Positions 21,390 to 40,827 of a stretch of 64,000 bases of DNA are shown here, piece by piece. The notes beneath the pieces were generated by a model. The model did not search any database. It was not told the origin of the DNA and worked only from the letters and a program-made list of their open reading frames with translations. Within the stretch, counting starts at the first letter, position 1, and each line of letters starts with the position of its first letter. Source of the stretch: Reticulascus tulasneorum (lineage: Eukaryota > Ascomycota > Sordariomycetes > Glomerellales > Reticulascaceae); assembly GCA_001557505.1 (NCBI GenBank), contig LSAX01000010.1, positions 124,001 to 188,000 of the forward strand, given 5' to 3'. The translations under genes were made by a program, and so were the position numbers.

Positions 21390-22322
21390 ATGGTTTATTA
21401 CTTCACTTCGTCCGTCGTGGACCCGTCCGCGCAAGTCTACGTAGGGAAAGACAAGTTCGAGAGTTAAGATCGCCACACCCCCCTCGGCTGCCTGCTCTAT
21501 CCGCTGACACGGGACTATGTAAGATGAGGAGTTGATCAAGTATGGCTGGGAGGAAGATATATGGTAAGCATGCCCTGACCTCTATCTGTGACGCCAAACT
21601 TATCCGGTCTATAGGGTAAGAGACACGCCACACTCATGGTGGTATCTCAGCGCATTGATGGGTTGGCGATTGCAGTTCCACGTCGACAAGCTCTCCAGCG
21701 CCCACATCTACCTCCGCATGCGCGAGGGCGAGACCTGGGATGCCCTACCCGAGGAACTCATCACCGACCTAGCGCAGCTCACGAAGGCCAATTCCATCGA
21801 GGGCAACAAGAAGGACAACGTCACCGTTATTTACACACCATGGTCGAACCTCAAGAAGGACGGCAGCATGGAGGTGGGCCAGGTCAGCTTCAAGGACCAG
21901 CGAAAGGTCCGTCATCTCCCCACTTGGAGGCTGGCAGCGGTTTGTATCTGACTCCAAGCAGGTGAAGCGCGTGCTTGTCGCGCAAAGAGAGAATCCGATT
22001 GTGAACCGGCTCAACAAGACCAAAGTCGAGAAGAAACCCGATCTGAAGCAGGAGCGGGAGGATCGGTTGAGGGAGCTGCGGAAGGTCGAGCAGGCGGCGC
22101 TGCTGATACGAGTTTGTTCCCCATATCCCTAACGCTCAGCCCTCTGATCGTTCGTTCGAACTGACATGAGAGTAGAAAAAGGAAGAGGCGCGTATAGCGC
22201 AGGAAAGAAAGGAGAAGAAATGGCATAAAGACCATGCCTACGACGAGCTCTTTTCCGAGCAGAACATGGAAGGCTCGAACAATCAGGACCGTGGCGAGGA
22301 CTGGGAGGATGACTTTATGTGA
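21390..22322 (+). CDS. CCDC25-like protein (NFACT-R/DUF814 family)
   Basis: 213 residues, close to the about 208 of animal CCDC25. The N-terminal NFACT-R (DUF814) domain begins MVYYFTSS and contains [20 protein letters not shown], the family's best-conserved stretch. A charged coiled-coil tail (KQEREDRLRELRK...ERKEKKWHKDHAYDELF) follows. The related NFACT-R domain of Rqc2/Tae2 acts in ribosome quality control; CCDC25 itself has been described in animals as a DNA-binding membrane protein. The fungal role is unknown. Exons are 21390-21462, 21524-21563, a single base at 21615, 21676-21906, 21962-22111 and 22176-22322. The single-base exon is needed to complete the Trp codon of DIWFHV; without it the frame is lost. 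All five introns then have GT-AG ends and lengths of 51-64 nt. Confidence 0.9.
21615..21615 (+). other. Predicted one-nucleotide exon (G) in the CCDC25-like gene
   Basis: The upstream exon ends ATA TG at 21563, followed by a GTAAGC donor. The sequence TATAG|G|GTAAG at 21610-21620 gives an acceptor, one exonic G and a new donor. The next acceptor TTGCAG (to 21675) is followed by TTC CAC GTC. Joining TG+G makes the conserved Trp. The flanking introns are 51 and 60 nt, like the others in this gene. The rival explanation is one 112-nt intron plus a missing G in the assembly at 21563-21564. Confidence 0.65.
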
Positions 22323-22516: not shown

Positions 22517-25500
22517 TCAACTACACATCCCAACTCCAATTTGACCGTCGCCAATCCCCAGCGACTCCATTTTCCCCGGAAGATCCAATGCCCCCGGATT
22601 ATCAACTTGACCATGAACTTTATGATCACCGGTGACAGCAGATTTGGATTCCTCTGCCGTCACTACTGTTCTCTCGCGCTTTGACCCTGACCTGCCCACC
22701 TCATCGGGACGGCTAATGAGGGCTGGTGGCTCATCGTCGTCATCCGCTTCCTCATCCAACAAATCGTCTAGGTCATCCTGCGGGTCGAGAAACGGCGACG
22801 AGCTGGGCTCTTCCTCTCGCAGGCGGCTTGATGGATGTTTCACATGCTCCTCCTCTTCATCTGCGAGCCGAACAATCGTCTCCCCACCGGGTAACTTGAT
22901 GTCCGACGCAGCTAAAGTCTCTGCGATGTCGAGAAGCAGCACATCCATCGGGCAGATGTATGCGACATGTTTCCGAGCACTCCAAGCCAAGACATGGCCA
23001 CAAACGCGGCCATGGCGCCGCTCAATCACCCACGCTCCGCTGTCTCCTGGGATGCCCAGCGGTAGCTGCTTGCCATCGGGGATTTGCTCGGTCGGCTTCT
23101 CGGCAGCAGTGCTGGTAACCTGGTACGTGTGGCTTGGTGACGCCCGTCCGAATATCTTGACGCTCGTAAGTGCTGGCAGGATTAGCCCGCCCTGGAGCCC
23201 ACTTGTGCGTGCGACACATTGGACTTCCAGACCTGGTAAGGCGGATGCGGGTGCCACGGTGGTTGGGTGAAGGTCGATGCCCTCGCTCGATGACCGGGCC
23301 CCTGGCGCCGATGAAACGTTGGTTGTGATCCGGGGAATCAAGTTATCGTCGGGTAGCCGGTCGTCGTGGAATTCGAATAAGGCCCAATCAATCTCATGCA
23401 CCAGCCCATTCTGTCTTCGCCGCCTGATTCCACTGGAGGCATAGATCTCGCCCAGTCTAAAGGTATCGAGGTGATCCTCTGCAGCTGTTTCCGGAGAAGG
23501 GTAGAACCCCTCTTCGACGTCATCCATCGCAGGCTGGGTCACGATGTAGCCTTCCCCGCAGCCAGGCTCAACCCCAGGGATATCGCCTTGTTCGTTGTAC
23601 TCGCCATCCTCATCCTCGCTATCTTCGTCTTCGTCATCTGACGCATCGCTCGTGATGTCCGTCTCGGATGTTTCTGACTCCGAGTCCGAGAACTCGCAAG
23701 CAAAGTCCTCCGTGCCACTGCTTTCTCCCGACGAATCGGCGTACCAGTCGAAGCGTACATCGTCCGGTCTTGCCATACTGCGCAGGGTCGGTTTAGTTTC
23801 ATCCTGACTTGAAGCATGATGAGCTTGGTCAGGGTCGTCGAGCATGTGGTGCACCGTCATGCCGTACGGCTTGTCATCCACGATGACCAATCCTCCAAAG
23901 CTGACCGGTGGCAGGTGACGGTCCCCAATCCAAGCGCCAATACTGGCGCCGTTGTTGGGCCGCTCTTGGAATTCGGGGTTTGCCGGTACAATTTCGCGAT
24001 CATCGCCTTGTTCCTCATCGTCCCCTTCAGCCATGCTCCTTTTCACAGATTTTGGCTCTTTTCGGGAACGCAGAACTTGTCCCCGGCAAACCTTGAGACC
24101 GAAGCCCTGCGCTCCGTCGGACAGCTCACTCATCTTACGGGTCAATATCGCCTTCACCTTGCTGACAGATGTGCACACGACCAGCACGGTCGGACGTGTC
24201 TTCTGCGGCGAGACGCCGATAGACTCGAGTGATATCTCAACAGATTCGGGGTTCTTGCGGTAGAAATGTCGGAGAGCATGGTTGATTTGGGGCATGACCA
24301 CTGTATTCCACTTGTCGATCGCATCGGGTGGCAACGGCACGTGGGGGAACAATCGCAGCTTCGTGGGTTCCGGCTTGATCGGAGATATTTGCTTCGGTTT
24401 TTCTACCAGAATGTCAGTGCCGGGCACCCGCAACGCCCCATATGGCCACTCACCACCCATGCTAGGCTTGAAGAATTCGCCCTTCTCGGATGGCGGTTCC
24501 GGAACGATGCGGGATTGCGCCATAGTAGCTGCCTTGTGGGATACGACGTCTGCCGGCTTTGACTCGGTAGAAGGTCCCGACTGACTTCGTTGCGCGGTTC
24601 GCCCAGTAGAAGAGATCAAATCGTCGCCCAGGTCTTGGCTCAACCGTTCCTCCAAGCCACTCACGCCGTCCAAGATGCAGCAAGCCTCCAAGTAGCGGCT
24701 GGCCTTGACCTGAACGCTTGACAAAAGCTCCTCGCCGGTACATCGACCAGATAGCTCCTTGTCGACGGCGTCCCAACATGACTGGACCGCTTTCGTGTAT
24801 AGGGTGCCGCATCGAATGGCGAGCTGCTCGAGGACAGATTCGGGGATTGACGGGGACGATGGATCGGGTACGAGATTCTCCAGCTTAGTCCATAAGCCAA
24901 TAGACAGGAGCACCATGGCGAGTGAGTAAAGGTCTAAGATGCGGGAGTCGGTCCGATCCGTGATCGGTGATTGCGACATGGTGCGAGGATCGAGGGGGTG
25001 GCGGAAGAGACGTAAGAATGGCGATGGCGCTTCCTCGGTCGAGGCATCGGGAAACAGATCGAACGAGGAGACCAACGGCCGGCGGACATCCACTTCCCCC
25101 GTGGTCGTGCCCGGCTCCGTGTTGGCAGCGTTGCAGAAGGACACGTTCGAGTCGACGAGGTTTCCGTGCGTGATGCCTCGGACATGCATATCGAAGACTG
25201 TATTCGCAAGGTTGTAAGCGAGGCGGAACTTCGCTTCCAGCCGCGGCTCAAAGTCTGGTCGAGACAGGAGATCACCTAGGGTGCAGAGATTGTAGAGTGG
25301 ATTCTGTGTGTAGTGCTCAAAGGACACGGCGTTGAAACCCTGTGGAAAGTGGTAGACCAGCCCGAGGCGAGAGCGCTCCAGATCTTCAAAATAACCGAGG
25401 AGTCTGGGGAGTCCGGTCCATGCGCCGGGCGACCTCTGCGATTCTTGCTGCAGTCCCGCGGACATCTTTTCGAAGCGGGCCATAGGTGGCATAATGCCGG

Positions 25501-26281
25501 TAGTCGAGTATATGGAGTCGAAGCCGGCAAACTCGAGGAGCAGGGGCGCCCACGGCTGGCGGCCGGTACGCTGTGCGGTCTCGCTCCAGGCTTGCTTGCT
25601 CATGAAGACAACTTCTCGTCGGGAGGCCCCGATGGAAGGTTCCGTCATGGGCTCGGCTTGCATTTCTCGCAGATTAGTCAAGGTTAGCGGGTCAATCTGC
25701 TGGGGCGTCTGCATTCGCGTCGACTCGAACGGCCGAAGTTCCTCGGTAGAAGAGGAGGACTTGTACAGCCTCGCGCGCGCTTGCTGGGAAGACAAGGCAG
25801 CCGACGACCGGGTTCTGGAAAGGTCATAGAGCGTGTCGATCGATGTCGTCAGGTCCCGCACGAGGTCTTCGAATCGTCCTCGATCCCAGACCACGAGGGA
25901 GATCTTTTGATCCCCACTCGCCTTGTCGGACCGCCGCTCACTGGCAAGCTGCCTCTTGGAGCTCTGCCATAACGGTTCGGCCTCGGCTAGGATGTCCTTG
26001 ATCGTCGACATGATACTGCCGACGATCTCGCTGAGGCCGGCCTTGGAGAGAGACTCATCGATCTCCGCCGACTGGTTCGGATCGGACCACTCCAGGCCCC
26101 AGCTCACAAAGCGGTCCTTCTGAATGCGGAGTTTCCTGTGCAGGGCCTTGATCTCCGGGTCCTCGGCATTCTGGACTGGATTGCTGACGAAGTCGGACGA
26201 CTTCTTGGTGTCGTTGTAGAGCCTGCTCAGGCGGCGCTGGAACGGGAGCTGGAAGCCCCCAAGGGGGAGAAAAGAGTCCAT
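22517..26281 (-). CDS. HeLo-like / pseudokinase / trypsin-like protease fusion, function unknown
   Basis: An uninterrupted frame of 1254 residues from a good ATG. Residues 1 to about 160 are helical; [18 protein letters not shown] resembles the HeLo (prion-inhibition and propagation) domain. Residues about 260-560 look like a degenerate protein kinase. [11 protein letters not shown] stands where HRDxxxxN is expected, SSFDLF where DFG is expected, and [12 protein letters not shown] matches the kinase F helix. The catalytic Asp is replaced, so it is a pseudokinase. After a linker and a very acidic Ser/Asp/Glu tract (about residues 840-915) comes a chymotrypsin-like protease. Its putative triad is His811 or His812 (MTVHHML), Asp965 (EIDWALFEF) and Ser1081 (GDSGAW). 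There is no signal peptide. An in-frame 51-nt segment (24403-24453) looks like an intron, so the spliced protein may be 1237 residues. Domain names are from motif reading only; the N-terminal assignment is the weakest. Confidence 0.75.
24403..24453 (-). other. Possible in-frame 51-nt intron in the HeLo-like/protease gene
   Basis: On the minus strand it begins GTGAGTGG, contains a CACTGAC branch-like sequence 11-12 bases before the end and ends GGTAG. Its length is a multiple of three with no stop, so splicing or retention both keep the frame. The encoded 17 residues lie in a linker, so conservation cannot decide. Confidence 0.5.
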
Positions 26282-34711: not shown

Positions 34712-35489
34712 AATAACGCTTTTTGCAGGTACCAGGGTGGTCGCGCCGAGTCAAGCATTCGTTGTACCACGTAGTATGCACTCAATATCCAAACCGCGTC
34801 GGATCTCCGAGATGAAAACCATACACCGTTTGATTACTTGGCTGTTCGCGAAATCTTTTGCCAAAACATGTAGCTACTGTACCTAGCCGTTGTTGATAGC
34901 CCACCCCCACAAAAAAATTGAAGACCACGCGAGCAGCGACAGGCAAGATTCCATGACATATGCCCAGGCCCGCAAAAAGTGGCGGACGGAGTTCGGTGCT
35001 TGGCCCACTATCACGTGCATTGTAATTATCCGGCGTATAGATAATCCGGCGCCACCCCTTATTCGAGGTATGAAAAGTGGGCCGGCCTATTGCTGCACGG
35101 TGATTGAAAGAAGGCCATTTGAATGCAGCCTACCTACTAGGCTCTATCATCAGTTGAACCTTGGATTCTACTAATAATTGCGTTCAGGACACCTGGAGAT
35201 TTTCCCATTTCTTTCAACGCCCGTTATATACCTACTTCTTTGTCTCTGTCTGTGTCGGCTGCACACTTCTCTACCCATAGCAGCATCTCCTCCACTCTTT
35301 TGGATTGTCTTTGCCGCTGTCACTCTGCCTAAACGCATTGTACCTGGGCTGCCCAAACCCGGGGATAATTATCGAGTATCGTCCCGCCGCGCCCCATCAG
35401 CCTCCCGATCAAGGCTCTGATGCCGTCATAAACATCTCGGCCATCCCCTGAAGGGCCTCAGTCCTTGTTGACCATTGCAGCAGAGCAGA

Positions 35490-38400
35490 ATGGCGGACTC
35501 GACGGCGGAACCGCTTTTGGCGGCCGATCACTTGGCGCATCCACGACGCCGCTTTTCATCCTCCCGATCCGCTGCTGCCGGCCACGAGCCCTCGAAGTCG
35601 CGAACTCATACCCACGACGCCGCCGCCGCTGCTGCCGCCGTTGACCCCGATACATGTCGGATATGTAGGGGGGAAGCCACCGTCGACGAACCCCTCTTCT
35701 ACCCGTGCAAATGCAGTGGGAGCATTAAGTATGTCCACCAAGACTGTCTCATGGAGTGGCTGTCGCACTCGCAGAAGAAGCACTGCGAGCTCTGCAAGAC
35801 TCCGTTTCGATTCACGAAGCTATACTCTCCGAAGATGCCCAAATCCCTGCCGGTCCATGTCTTCATCGGTCACATGGCCAAGTACCTCTTCCGAAACCTT
35901 TTGATCTGGCTGAGAGCAGCCCTAGTCATCAGTGTATGGCTATGTTGGCTACCGTATCTAATGCGACAGGTCTGGGCCTTTTTGTTTTGGGTCAGCGACG
36001 AAGGGTTGGGTGGTGGATTGCTGTGGGTTCCGACGAGCGATTCGGGCACTCGAGGAACTCAGGTCTCCTCGGCCGCGACAAGCTCGTCTACATGTCCTTC
36101 CAGCCCGCTGTTCATCGCGAGCACTACAGTGTCTACGATGGGCGGATTGTTAGATCAGATGGGTCAGTGCCGTGGATCCTCCTTCACAAACACAATTTAC
36201 GGCGTCAATGTCACCACCACCGACTCCATGTCCGGCGCCTTCCTTCGTATCCTCTTTGGCTCTATTGGGCTTTCGACGGGGACGAACAGGACGAGCAGTG
36301 AACCGCATCTCGATCGCCACCATTCCCTCCTGAGCGACGTGTCTTGGCTGCGCAATTTCACCCGCTATCCCGTGCTGAATCGGACGCTGATCAACGTATT
36401 GGAGGGTCAGATCATCACCCTCCTAGTCATCGTCTGCTTTATACTTGTCATTCTCGTTAGGGATTACGTGGTCCAGCAGCAGCCGGAGATTAATATGCGG
36501 GCAGCGTTCGCCAATGAAAACGGGCGAGAACAAGAGCAAAATAGGCAGGACGAAGAGCTTGCGGACCAGGTCGATCAACTCCGCGGACCCGAAGAATCCG
36601 ACGATGACACCCTGGATACAGAGGGCACGGCGGAATCAGCTCGAAACATGGTATACCCAGATTTACCCTGGGAGGAACAAGAGCCAACTCCAGACTTACC
36701 TGGGAGCTCACAGCCACATTCGATCGGCTTTCGGCGGCGGCCTTCCGGACTCGCAAACTCCAGCCCTGTAGACGAGCCTCATGCCAATGTTAGCAATTAT
36801 GACGGCGCTGCCGACCCAAACACAGATGAAGTGGCTGAGGGGAACTTCAACGGCCCCCCACCAAGTCCAGTGGCAACCGTACACGAGTACCTGCGGATCT
36901 ACCGCCAAGTGGGGGGCGATCCGGAGAAAATTCTCAAGACCATCGAGGAGGAGAACCTGGAAGAGACACTAGGATACTGGGCTCGGATCACACGATCAAT
37001 GATTGACAAGAATCGTGAGACTAGTGAAGAGCAAGAACAATCTGCGAAAGATACATCGGAGGTTGTGGCGAATGCTTTGGCCATTCCGCGGCAACCTAGC
37101 CCGTCCCCGATTCCATTCTCGGTCCAACTACCGGCGCCATCTACTCCAGAATTTTCCTGGCCCGTTGAAGACGCAAATGGAGATGACAAGGGGAAGGGGA
37201 AGGAATCCACGCGGACCAGGACTGATGAAGCCGACATGCAGTCCTCGGGCAGGGACATCCCCCCCGCACCGAAACAAAACGCCGTTCCTAGCCCCTTGAG
37301 GCCCCGTTCCATCTCGGACGGGCCTCAGAGGATCGACTCCATCAACCCGCTTGCGAACAATAGCTGGTCATTTTCCTCAATCCCAGCAAAGGAGTTACCA
37401 AAAGATGCAGCTGGCCCTCAGACTAAGTATGCCACGCCTCCTCCGAGCGTAGGTCCTTCGAGCACTGCTGCTGAGGAAGGCTCACCAGTTGATATGCGGG
37501 AAGAACTTTACTCTTTTGACCCCAGGCCTGCTGAGAGCTATGGCAGCCTCGAGGAGTTTGGCCTGGAATCCGTGTCAGAGGCACTTGGTTCTGTGGTAGA
37601 TGAGGACCTCGAGAATGCCAGCACAGCGGCGATCGCGGAAGAGGTTGCAACCGAAGAGCGCGAACCTGTGCTGGAAGATCGGCCAGTGCAACGGCCTCCA
37701 CCGCGACATGGGCTTATCAATCGGGTTGCAGATTTCATGTGGGGCGACATTCAAGACCGGGAGGCAGAGGACAACGACGCCCATGGCGAAGGAGAAGGGC
37801 TCCAGGACAACCTCAACATACAGGACTTGTTCGTAGACCCGGTCGCTGATGAGGATATGCCGGACGGCCTCGAGCAAGACCGAGAAGCCGTTGAAGCTGC
37901 TGTTGCTGCTGGCTTAGATCCGGAGGCTATTGAGGATGCTGAAGATTTTGATGGCATCATGGAGTTGATCGGCATGCGCGGGCCAATTGCAGGGCTATTT
38001 CAGAACGCTATATTCTGTGCCGTTCTGGTCTCCGTCACGATCTTTCTCTGCGTATTCCTGCCGTACAACATTGGGAGGATCAGTGTCTGGGCTGCAATGA
38101 ACCCGATGCGACTAGTGCGCATGCTCTTTAGCCTGACCAAGTTTGTCCAGGATCTCGCGGTCACGATCGTTGCCGGACTATCAAGTGCCCTTCTTTCGAT
38201 CGTCTACATCGCCGGGCGGTTGCTCGGCTGGCTGCCGTCGAGTCATATTATTGGCCATGCAATGATGAACACCTGGGTCATTTCCGCCAATGCTTCCTCC
38301 AGAGTTCTGGACAGCGTCATGACCGAGCTTCCCATTATTTCGGCGTCCGAGATGCAGAACTTCTCTGCCATCAGCCACGAGTCGCTGATTCTGCTAAAGG

Positions 38401-40827
38401 GTCACGTTTCTGCAGCCTTTGCGGCCATCGACAACGCGCTTGCGTTCCTTGTGACAGGGGACTTGCCGTACAAAATCTCGGAGACAGCCGCCATGGCTGC
38501 AAACGCCACAACCTTTGCTTGGCAAGCCATCAACCAGGTGCCGTCGAGCTTCTTCAACCCCGGCTCTTGGGTTATTAGCTTCAGCATACCCGAGTCTACT
38601 ACGACTGTAAACCCGGAGCTCGCGTACTGGAGCGGCATGGACAGGTTCTGGGCCATAATTTGTGGATATTTCAGCCTGTCGGCAATTGGCGGCCTCTACC
38701 TTCGCCGAGGAACTCCTTTCTCGACCAGCCCCACCGGCCAGGAATGGGAAGCCTCTGTGATTGACCTGTTAAACCAGGCAAGCGGTGTCATGAAGGTGAT
38801 TCTCATCATTAGCATTGAGATGCTCATCTTCCCTCTCTACTGCGGCCTCCTCTTGGACTTCGCTTTACTTCCCCTGTTCGAGGACACATCGTTAAGATCA
38901 CGGCTCATCTTCACACTGAATTACCCTCTGACATCGATTTTTGTGCATTGGTTTGTGGGCACAGGTTACATGTTCCACTTCGCCCTCTTCGTTTCCATGT
39001 GCCGGAAGATCATGCGCAAAGGTGTGCTCTGTACGTTGACAGCTTATCAGAGTCCCTTTCAGAGATATCGCTAACCTTGTGGCAGATTTTATCAGAGATC
39101 CCGATGACCCGGAGTTTCATCCGGTTCGTGACGTGCTGGAACGAAACGTCATGACCCAACTCAGGAAGATAGCCTTCTCTGCCTTCGTCTACGGTGCCCT
39201 GGTCATCGTCTGCCTAGGCGGCGTGGTTTGGGGCTTGTCGTGCTTCAGGCCGCATGTCCTCCCCATACATTATTCCTCAAACGAGCCTGTACTGGAGTTC
39301 CCGATTGATTTGCTCTTCTACAACTTCTTGATGCCATTGGCCGTTAAGTTTTTCAAACCCAGCGATGCACTGCATGCCATGTATACTTGGTGGTTCAGGA
39401 AGTGCGCGCGGGGGCTTCGGCTGACCTGGTTTCTGTTTGGGGAGCGCCAGATCGACGAGGAGGGTATTCTTGCTCTGCACCCAGAGTCCCCTCAACTCGA
39501 ACTGCCGTGGTGGAGGCGTAGTTTTCTCGAAGTGAACAAACAAAATAAGGTGGTACCGAAAACATGGGAGGATGCGTTTGACGGCGGGACGGCTAAGCCG
39601 GTTTCGCTCATACCAAACGATCAGATGATTGTCCTCAACCTCAATAAGCAGCGTCTTGTCGACTCTGGGCAGCTGATTGATGACGGGCACTTCGTACGCA
39701 CGCCAGCATCTGATCAAGTAAAGATTCCTAAAGGAAAGATGGTGTTTATGACGGTGTCGGAGACCAACTGCAGACTAGATGGCAAAGACGACCTGCCGGA
39801 GACGGATATTTATTCAACGGATCAGTACCAATTGGTGTACATCCCTCCACATTTCCGCCTACGCATATTCCTCTTCATACTCTTCATTTGGCTGTTTGCC
39901 GCTGTCACCGGCGTCGGCTTCACAATCCTCCCTCTGGTTTTCGGTCGCAAGATGTTCAAGGTGTTAATTCCAGCACATATCAGAACCAACGACATCTATG
40001 CGTTCAGCATCGGCATCTACGTCCTGGGCTCCGCGGCCTACTCCATCTTCCACCTCAGATCTATGGCAGGCAAGGCGGAAGTGTGGTTGTCGTCTCTTGT
40101 CAACGCTGTCTGGGACCGTGAGACGCCGAAGCGGGTCGCAAGCATCGCCACACGCGTGGCGAAACTTGCCTACACATATTTCTTTCTTCTCTTTGTGTTC
40201 CCTATGCTTGTAGCAGTTCTTATGGAGTGCTACTTGATCATCCCCCTCCACACTTACATGTACCCTCTCACATCTGTGACTGTCGAGCCGCACACTGCTG
40301 GCCACATTGTGGATGGTGTCGTGGTGACCAGTAAACATACGACTCGCGTCATACAGTCATGGACTCTAGGCCTCCTCTACCTAAAGCTCGGTGCTCGCAT
40401 TATCACAGGGGTATATGAGGGCACCAGGATGGCCAGTGCTGTGCGAGCGGTCCTTCGTCGCGGCTGGCTCCAGCCTGATGTCGGTGTGCTGACCCGAGCA
40501 TTCGTCATACCTGGGCTGTTATTTGGTGCGCTGGCGATATTCGGTCCCGGCCTCGCAGTCAAGTTCGCTATCCACGCCGTGCCGAGGACGGCGCCACCGA
40601 CACCGCAGGAGCTTGCTACACTCTTTAGGGTGTCCTATCCTCTGGCTATGCTCACTGCCTTGACATCTATGGCGTTCTTTAGCACCATACGCATCTTCAA
40701 GACATGGACCGCCCGGATCCGTGACGAAGCATATCTCATTGGCGAACGATTGCACAACTTTGGGGTTGGCGCTGCAGGCGCTGCTAATACGAAGGGGCCC
40801 TGGAGGGTCAGGGGGGCGAGGTTGTAA
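35490..40827 (+). CDS. DOA10/SSM4-type ER membrane E3 ubiquitin ligase
   Basis: This membrane RING-CH E3 ligase works in ER-associated degradation and inner-nuclear-membrane quality control, with Ubc6 and Ubc7 as usual E2 partners. Two exons (35490-39030 and 39086-40827) encode 1760 residues, in the fungal DOA10 size range. The RING-CH domain has Cys56, Cys59, Cys73, Cys75, His83, Cys86, Cys99 and Cys102 in the C4HC3 order. Hydrophobic segments follow at about residues 130-170 and 310-330. A long acidic cytosolic region with a short EYLRIYRQVGGDPEKIL helix comes next, then about ten further membrane segments in the C-terminal half. An Ala tract (seven residues, GCC-rich) precedes the RING. 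The start is the first ATG in frame (AGAATGGCG). The single 55-nt intron has a CTAAC branch and joins within GVLY|FIRDPDDPEF. Confidence 0.95.

Follow-up and report, generated by a model that had tools for sequence, protein, structure and literature searches.

A predicted single-nucleotide exon in a fungal CCDC25 gene, with probable traces in the gene models of related species

Results

Organization of the CCDC25 gene

The window, a stretch of 64,000 nt of Reticulascus tulasneorum DNA, comes from an assembly of 42.8 Mb in 35 contigs. Its introns and homologues are suggestive of a filamentous ascomycete close to the Sordariomycetes. At 21390–22322 (+) it carries a gene that translates conceptually into a protein of 213 aa. 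The sole Pfam domain of this product is NFACT-R_1 (DUF814; PF05670), which spans residues 1–112 and scored 114.5 bits against a cut-off of 29.8, and human CCDC25 (chains 7eof, 8woh and 7eoe) matched the product at about 205 bits. By both the domain and the human alignment the gene belongs to the CCDC25/NFACT-R_1 family, bearing out a preliminary description, made from the DNA letters, which had called it CCDC25-like. Its closest database relatives, within the best 120 of 3,674 matches, were full-length and 77–85% identical.

All exons lie on the forward strand. Exon 1 (21390–21462) reads MVYYFTSSVVDPSAQVYVGKDKFE plus one base, and its conceptual splice matches PF05670 and the human CCDC25 structures. 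Intron 1 (21463–21523; 61 nt, GTTAAG..TGTAAG) yields a protein like that of the homologues; its acceptor, AAG, is of the less usual kind, and CTGAC stands 16 nt from its 3′ end. Exon 2 (21524–21563) ends GAT ATA TG, in phase 2. It is followed by intron a (21564–21614; 51 nt, GTAAGC..CTATAG), the candidate exon, a single G at 21615, and intron b (21616–21675; 60 nt, GTAAGA..TTGCAG). Exon 4 (21676–21906) starts with TTC CAC in phase 0 and ends with FKDQRK. Intron 3 (21907–21961; 55 nt, GTCCGT..AAGCAG) has CTGAC 10 nt from its 3′ end, and after exon 5 (21962–22111) comes intron 4 (22112–22175; 64 nt, GTTTGT..GAGTAG, CTGAC 11 nt from the 3′ end), whose boundaries were picked because they yield 213 aa, the usual length of homologues. 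The last exon, with the stop codon, occupies 22176–22322.

A single G would complete the conserved tryptophan codon

Joined directly, exons 2 and 4 are one base short, and the resulting frameshift meets a stop after 69 codons; to preserve the conserved frame, the join must gain one base. The preliminary description had made the same observation and had placed the missing base at 21615, in TATAG|G|GTAAG, between introns of 51 and 60 nt bounded by 21563 and 21676. These coordinates proved right. The G is flanked by AG and GT, leaves two workable introns, and supplies the third base of the Trp-38 codon TGG, so that the protein continues without a gap. This configuration is present in the DNA, and its interpretation as a one-base exon is supported by the ranking of splice models, by shuffled sequences and by footprints in homologous gene models.

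Splice models were enumerated with one or two introns, each running from a GT or GC donor to an AG acceptor over 35 nt or more, while the remainder of the gene was kept fixed. Of 321 models tried, 42 were open and in frame, so there are in-frame solutions beyond that of the preliminary description. The one-base-exon model ranked first both on a fungal profile (422.2 versus 406.0 bits for the runner-up) and on human CCDC25 alone (204.7 versus 186.9 bits). As the 31 sequences of the fungal profile had been picked for having the tryptophan and the human query had not, the latter serves as an independent comparison. The runner-up, an 87-nt intron ending at 21650, was 16–18 bits worse and lacks the conserved tryptophan. 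The reading frame, the splice sites and the uniqueness of the best model can be read directly from the DNA. We infer splicing in this species, and consider it very likely that two ordinary spliceosomal introns, of 51 and 60 nt, flank a one-base exon (G at 21615) that completes a tryptophan codon in this fungal CCDC25. The predicted spliced joint is GATATATG-G-TTCCAC; a transcript reading GATATATGTTCCAC would be at odds with the model or represent a further isoform.

The branch points are less regular. CTRAY occurs 10–16 nt before the 3′ end in introns 1, 3 and 4 and in one intron of a neighbouring gene, and a search of the same interval in introns a and b did not find it. The sole candidates there are YTNAY-type sequences, CTTAT (12 nt from the end) and TTGAT (17 nt). 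The corresponding motifs of the rival splice models were no better.

Chance occurrence of the motif

The sequence AGGGTAAG was seen once in the window, counting both strands, against 1.27 expected, which by simple arithmetic amounts to a chance of about 0.001 per 112-nt intron. The 112-nt intervening sequence was also subjected to 20,000 dinucleotide shuffles with its ends fixed. AG|G|GTRAG arose in 9 shuffles at a place where both flanking introns have 45 nt or more, and at any place in 39; for the looser AG|G|GT the counts were 375 and 1,806, respectively. A chance motif within such an intron is thus as unlikely as had been supposed. Repeats of at least 10 nt, as expected of duplicated twin introns, were looked for within 21524–21700 and none was present.

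Splicing order and consequences of failure

Introns a and b would leave in separate reactions, in either order. The preliminary description had proposed that either could go first, and the sequence agrees with it: in the primary transcript neither donor b (G|GTAAGA, from 21616) nor acceptor a (TATAG|G, ending at 21614) is disrupted, and each would stay intact whichever intron leaves first. Since the two sites are one base apart, they would never be occupied together. By conceptual translation, skipping of the G brings a frameshift and a stop after 69 codons (69 aa), and retention of intron a brings a stop at codon 38; the correct protein would accordingly need both splicing events. Intron b, at 60 nt, is a multiple of three and has no stop, and its retention gives an in-frame product of 233 aa, which could occur as a minor isoform beside the main splicing.

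Homologous gene models break at the same joint

The tryptophan joint was inspected in two lists of homologues, an annotated entry that did not read D-[VIL]-W-F-H there being counted as broken. The first list, the best 120 of 3,674 matches, held 101 NCBI-annotated and 19 environmental entries; its named entries we take to be Sordariomycetes, as far as the names were recognised. Among these, 37 of the 101 annotated models were broken at exactly this joint, and none of the 19 environmental ones. The other 64 read the tryptophan correctly, and their genes may have a one-base exon, an ordinary intron or none. The second list, the best 120 of 3,196 matches, added 93 new entries (74 annotated, 42 of them broken; 19 environmental, none broken), but its query itself lacks VW, so this list is biased towards broken models. 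Taking both lists and the second query together, 80 of 176 annotated models were broken versus 0 of 38 environmental sequences, among the matches listed.

All 38 environmental sequences are open reading frames that read D-[VIL]-W-F-H. They run uninterrupted over 213 aa, on contigs of 0.9–5.3 kb, and probably come from spliced transcripts, although for any single one an intronless gene is possible.

The breaks were concentrated at this position. Insertions or deletions at residues 30–39 affected 79 of the 176 annotated models, again among the matches listed, compared with 0/176, 0/176 and 4/176 in the control 10-residue bins at joints 24, 115 and 165. The next highest bins, with 11 and 10, lay in the variable C-terminal part and at residues 130–139. 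Models from one species could disagree at the joint: the Verticillium dahliae entries P0039 and P0291 are identical outside it, as are P0099 and P0102 of Apiospora arundinis, and P0016 and P0079 of Fusarium avenaceum differ at the joint and by two substitutions. The related Fusarium models P0017, P0048 and P0070 read VW, GE and nothing there, respectively. Such differences are faults of annotation and not protein evolution.

Of the 80 broken models, 63 lack two residues (VW or IW) and 17 have other residues in their place. Where the tryptophan was kept and residues were added, 9 of 11 models continue with F, Y or W, that is, with a codon starting with T (binomial P = 3e-5; 6 of 8 when counted by genus, P = 0.002). 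Those with one extra residue read VWF (four), VWY (three) and VWW (one), and another reads VWYEISFPV. A T-starting codon after TGG fits read-through of a donor TG|GTNN, and WVRYLT in Thyridium would fit AG|G|GTAAGR. Arginine before the phenylalanine (VCNSR, VCVR and NFVRR; P0099, P0276 and P0296) would likewise fit AG|G, and glutamine (VWPQ, VCLQ and GVQ; P0037, P0089 and P0299) CAG|TTC, while GE in Fusarium solani could be from GGTGAG. Together, the wrong residues appear compatible with an upstream exon that ends in phase 2, a downstream exon that starts in phase 0 and a G flanked by AG and GT, as in TG|GT...AG|G|GT...AG|TTC. P0105 and P0296 fit this scheme only in part. P0079, which lacks IW where its sister P0016 has Ile, is left unexplained by it, because an Ile codon, unlike that of the models that lost VW, offers no GT donor.

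Alternative readings of the joint

A G might be missing after ATATG, from the assembly or through a loss in this strain, in which case the real gene would have one ordinary 112-nt phase-0 intron. The join would be simple (TGG|GTAAGC...GCAG|TTC), with TTGAT 17 nt before its end, and the matter turns on the assembled sequence ATATGGTAAGC. This reading demands an indel exactly at the joint together with an independent, well-placed AGGGTAAG by chance (AG|G|GTRAG in 9/20,000 shuffles), and it leaves unexplained the breaks at the same joint in the annotated models of many other species. A neighbouring gene that had seemed split, a MARCHF6-like gene, has at 39022–39085 a normal 64-nt intron and no frameshift. 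With the one-base-exon model scoring best, the low chance of the motif and the same weak joint in annotated homologues, we regard a missing G as improbable.

Were there only one intron, with a non-canonical end such as GT...CA|G TTC, the G would come from the downstream side; this arrangement, too, would yield TGG TTC and confuse gene finders in relatives. Such an end is unneeded when consensus sites surround 21615, and the W-V-R of the Thyridium model and the arginine-before-phenylalanine models point to an AG|G|GT inside the intervening sequence of relatives; we consider this reading very improbable.

The 87-nt intron (21564–21650, acceptor TCTCAG) is open, in frame and has normal ends, with CTCAT 14 nt before its end, and it could be picked by gene-finding software that has no means of handling one-base exons. 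Its protein, with CALMGWRLQ instead of the tryptophan, is worse by 16.2 bits on the fungal profile and 17.8 bits on human CCDC25; it drops a residue found in human CCDC25 and adds eight that are found in none of the 38 uninterrupted reading frames. We give it hardly any weight. That intron a alone is removed, the 60 nt of intron b being coding and adding 20 residues after the tryptophan (233 aa), is tolerated by the frame but scarcely credible: this model is 25.6 bits worse on the fungal profile (396.6 versus 422.2), and intron b opens with a strong donor, GTAAGA, and closes with a CAG acceptor that falls exactly at the conserved FHVD. Translational frameshifting was also considered; it is unneeded in those relatives whose reading frames run uninterrupted.

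Taxonomic spread and origin

From protein models, the one-base exon is probably common to Sordariomycetes, as suggested by the broken joints, the intact environmental reading frames, the differences between models of one species and the wrong residues, and the structure is probably ancestral in that class. Scans of the viral_contigs and genome_contigs collections for orthologous DNA found no relative. Broken models were also seen outside the class, in Sarcosagium (leotiomyceta incertae sedis), Trichoglossum (Geoglossomycetes), Bathelium (Dothideomycetes), Exophiala (Eurotiomycetes), Pseudogymnoascus (Leotiomycetes) and Sarea (Sareomycetes), and the exon is perhaps common to leotiomyceta. Most of these models show nothing more than the loss of VW. 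Read-through is the stronger evidence, so we place more trust in conservation within Sordariomycetes than across the wider group.

As to origin, intron b may have entered one base 3′ of a phase-2 intron (TG|G) that was already there, a route that would involve no frameshifted intermediate. In three genomic-looking fragments (P0121, P0123 and P0213) the residue preceding FH[VA]D is Q, the reading that a phase-0 acceptor CAG|TTC gives. Two more distant ones (P0157, 131 aa; P0175, 103 aa) have LFR there, as a phase-2 acceptor TTYAG|G TTC gives, and P0157 can be read as retaining a 69-nt phase-2 intron. P0157 and P0175 would fit one ordinary phase-2 intron (TG|G) where intron a now lies, a possible ancestral state. 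The residues before FH[VA]D in these five fragments suggest that the position of intron a came first and that intron b joined it later, one base farther downstream. On balance we incline, with some reserve, to the fuller history in which the exon is ancestral to leotiomyceta and arose when intron b entered one base away from a phase-2 intron already in place; on this view it has persisted for hundreds of millions of years, and many gene models, a large share of them, break on it. The age is given as general background.

Discussion

One-base exons lie at the limit of what a spliceosome can define and of what a gene finder can represent. In the reports cited here the known cases are few, with a pair of gene families from land plants and another from Fusarium. 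A one-base exon is in print for Arabidopsis APC11 (PMC4674806), those of APC11 and VPS55 are described as conserved in land plants (PMC8831610), and a one-nucleotide exon is reported in Fusarium CYP621A (PMC12940212). In the open-access literature we found no earlier report of a one-base exon in CCDC25.

The nearest parallel is CYP621A, in which, as in the present gene, a filamentous ascomycete has a single G in AGGGT between two introns, the base completes a codon of a conserved motif, and gene models are wrong at that place (PMC12940212). That report describes the CYP621A exon as confined to Fusarium and documented by RNA reads from two species. CCDC25 is a different gene; its exon is predicted here from DNA, with protein-model footprints over several fungal classes. 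The scenario put forward for CYP621A is loss of a base rescued by a cryptic exon (PMC12940212), whereas for CCDC25 we prefer a history in which a second intron entered one base away from an existing one. The CCDC25 exon is very likely a further fungal case, and probably a much older one.

The plant exons resemble the present one in being, by the available descriptions, constitutive, long conserved and absent from annotations (PMC4674806, PMC8831610); a further likeness is that the base in VPS55 is followed by a strong donor, GTRAGT (PMC8831610). They differ in being plant exons of other genes with proof by RT-PCR (PMC4674806, PMC8831610). The Arabidopsis exon sits in an intervening sequence of 422 nt; that of CCDC25 sits in 112 nt, with minimal fungal introns.

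The preliminary description had also related the arrangement to stwintrons, in which an internal intron interrupts the donor, branch point or acceptor of an external one and must go first (PMC5639578, PMC12403724). The likeness goes as far as two U2-type introns packed at one intron position (PMC5639578, PMC12403724). In CCDC25 no splice element is interrupted, GTAAGA (21616–21621) and CTATAG (21609–21614) both being contiguous, and either intron could go first. By definition this is not a stwintron, and the relation is one of analogy only.

If the reading of an exon ancestral to leotiomyceta is true, no older one-base exon would be known from fungi. The new part, provided that orthologous DNA confirms it, is the footprint over fungal classes. 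Lying in a conserved eukaryotic gene, the case would demonstrate that one-base exons can reach a great age and stay stable in fungi whose introns are very short. A common fault of annotation, present in 37 of 101 NCBI-annotated models within the best 120 of 3,674 matches, would be put right as well, and the question of origin becomes testable: either a base was lost and the frame rescued, or an intron was inserted one base beside an older one. Loss of intron a or of intron b would leave the remaining intron at positions one base apart, so the arrangement would be a natural intermediate for one-nucleotide intron shifts.

Some neighbouring features of the window were also recorded. Just downstream of the CCDC25 gene is a reading frame of 1254 aa (22517–26281, –) with a partial HeLo match (PF14479, E 7.7e-8), and a phosphoketolase gene is also present, inspected for frameshifts by eye only. 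RINGv and MARCHF6_C lie in two consecutive reading frames at 35475–40827 (+); a frameshift between them was considered and ruled out, and the two are joined by the 64-nt intron at 39022–39085, which has CTAAC 11 nt before its end.
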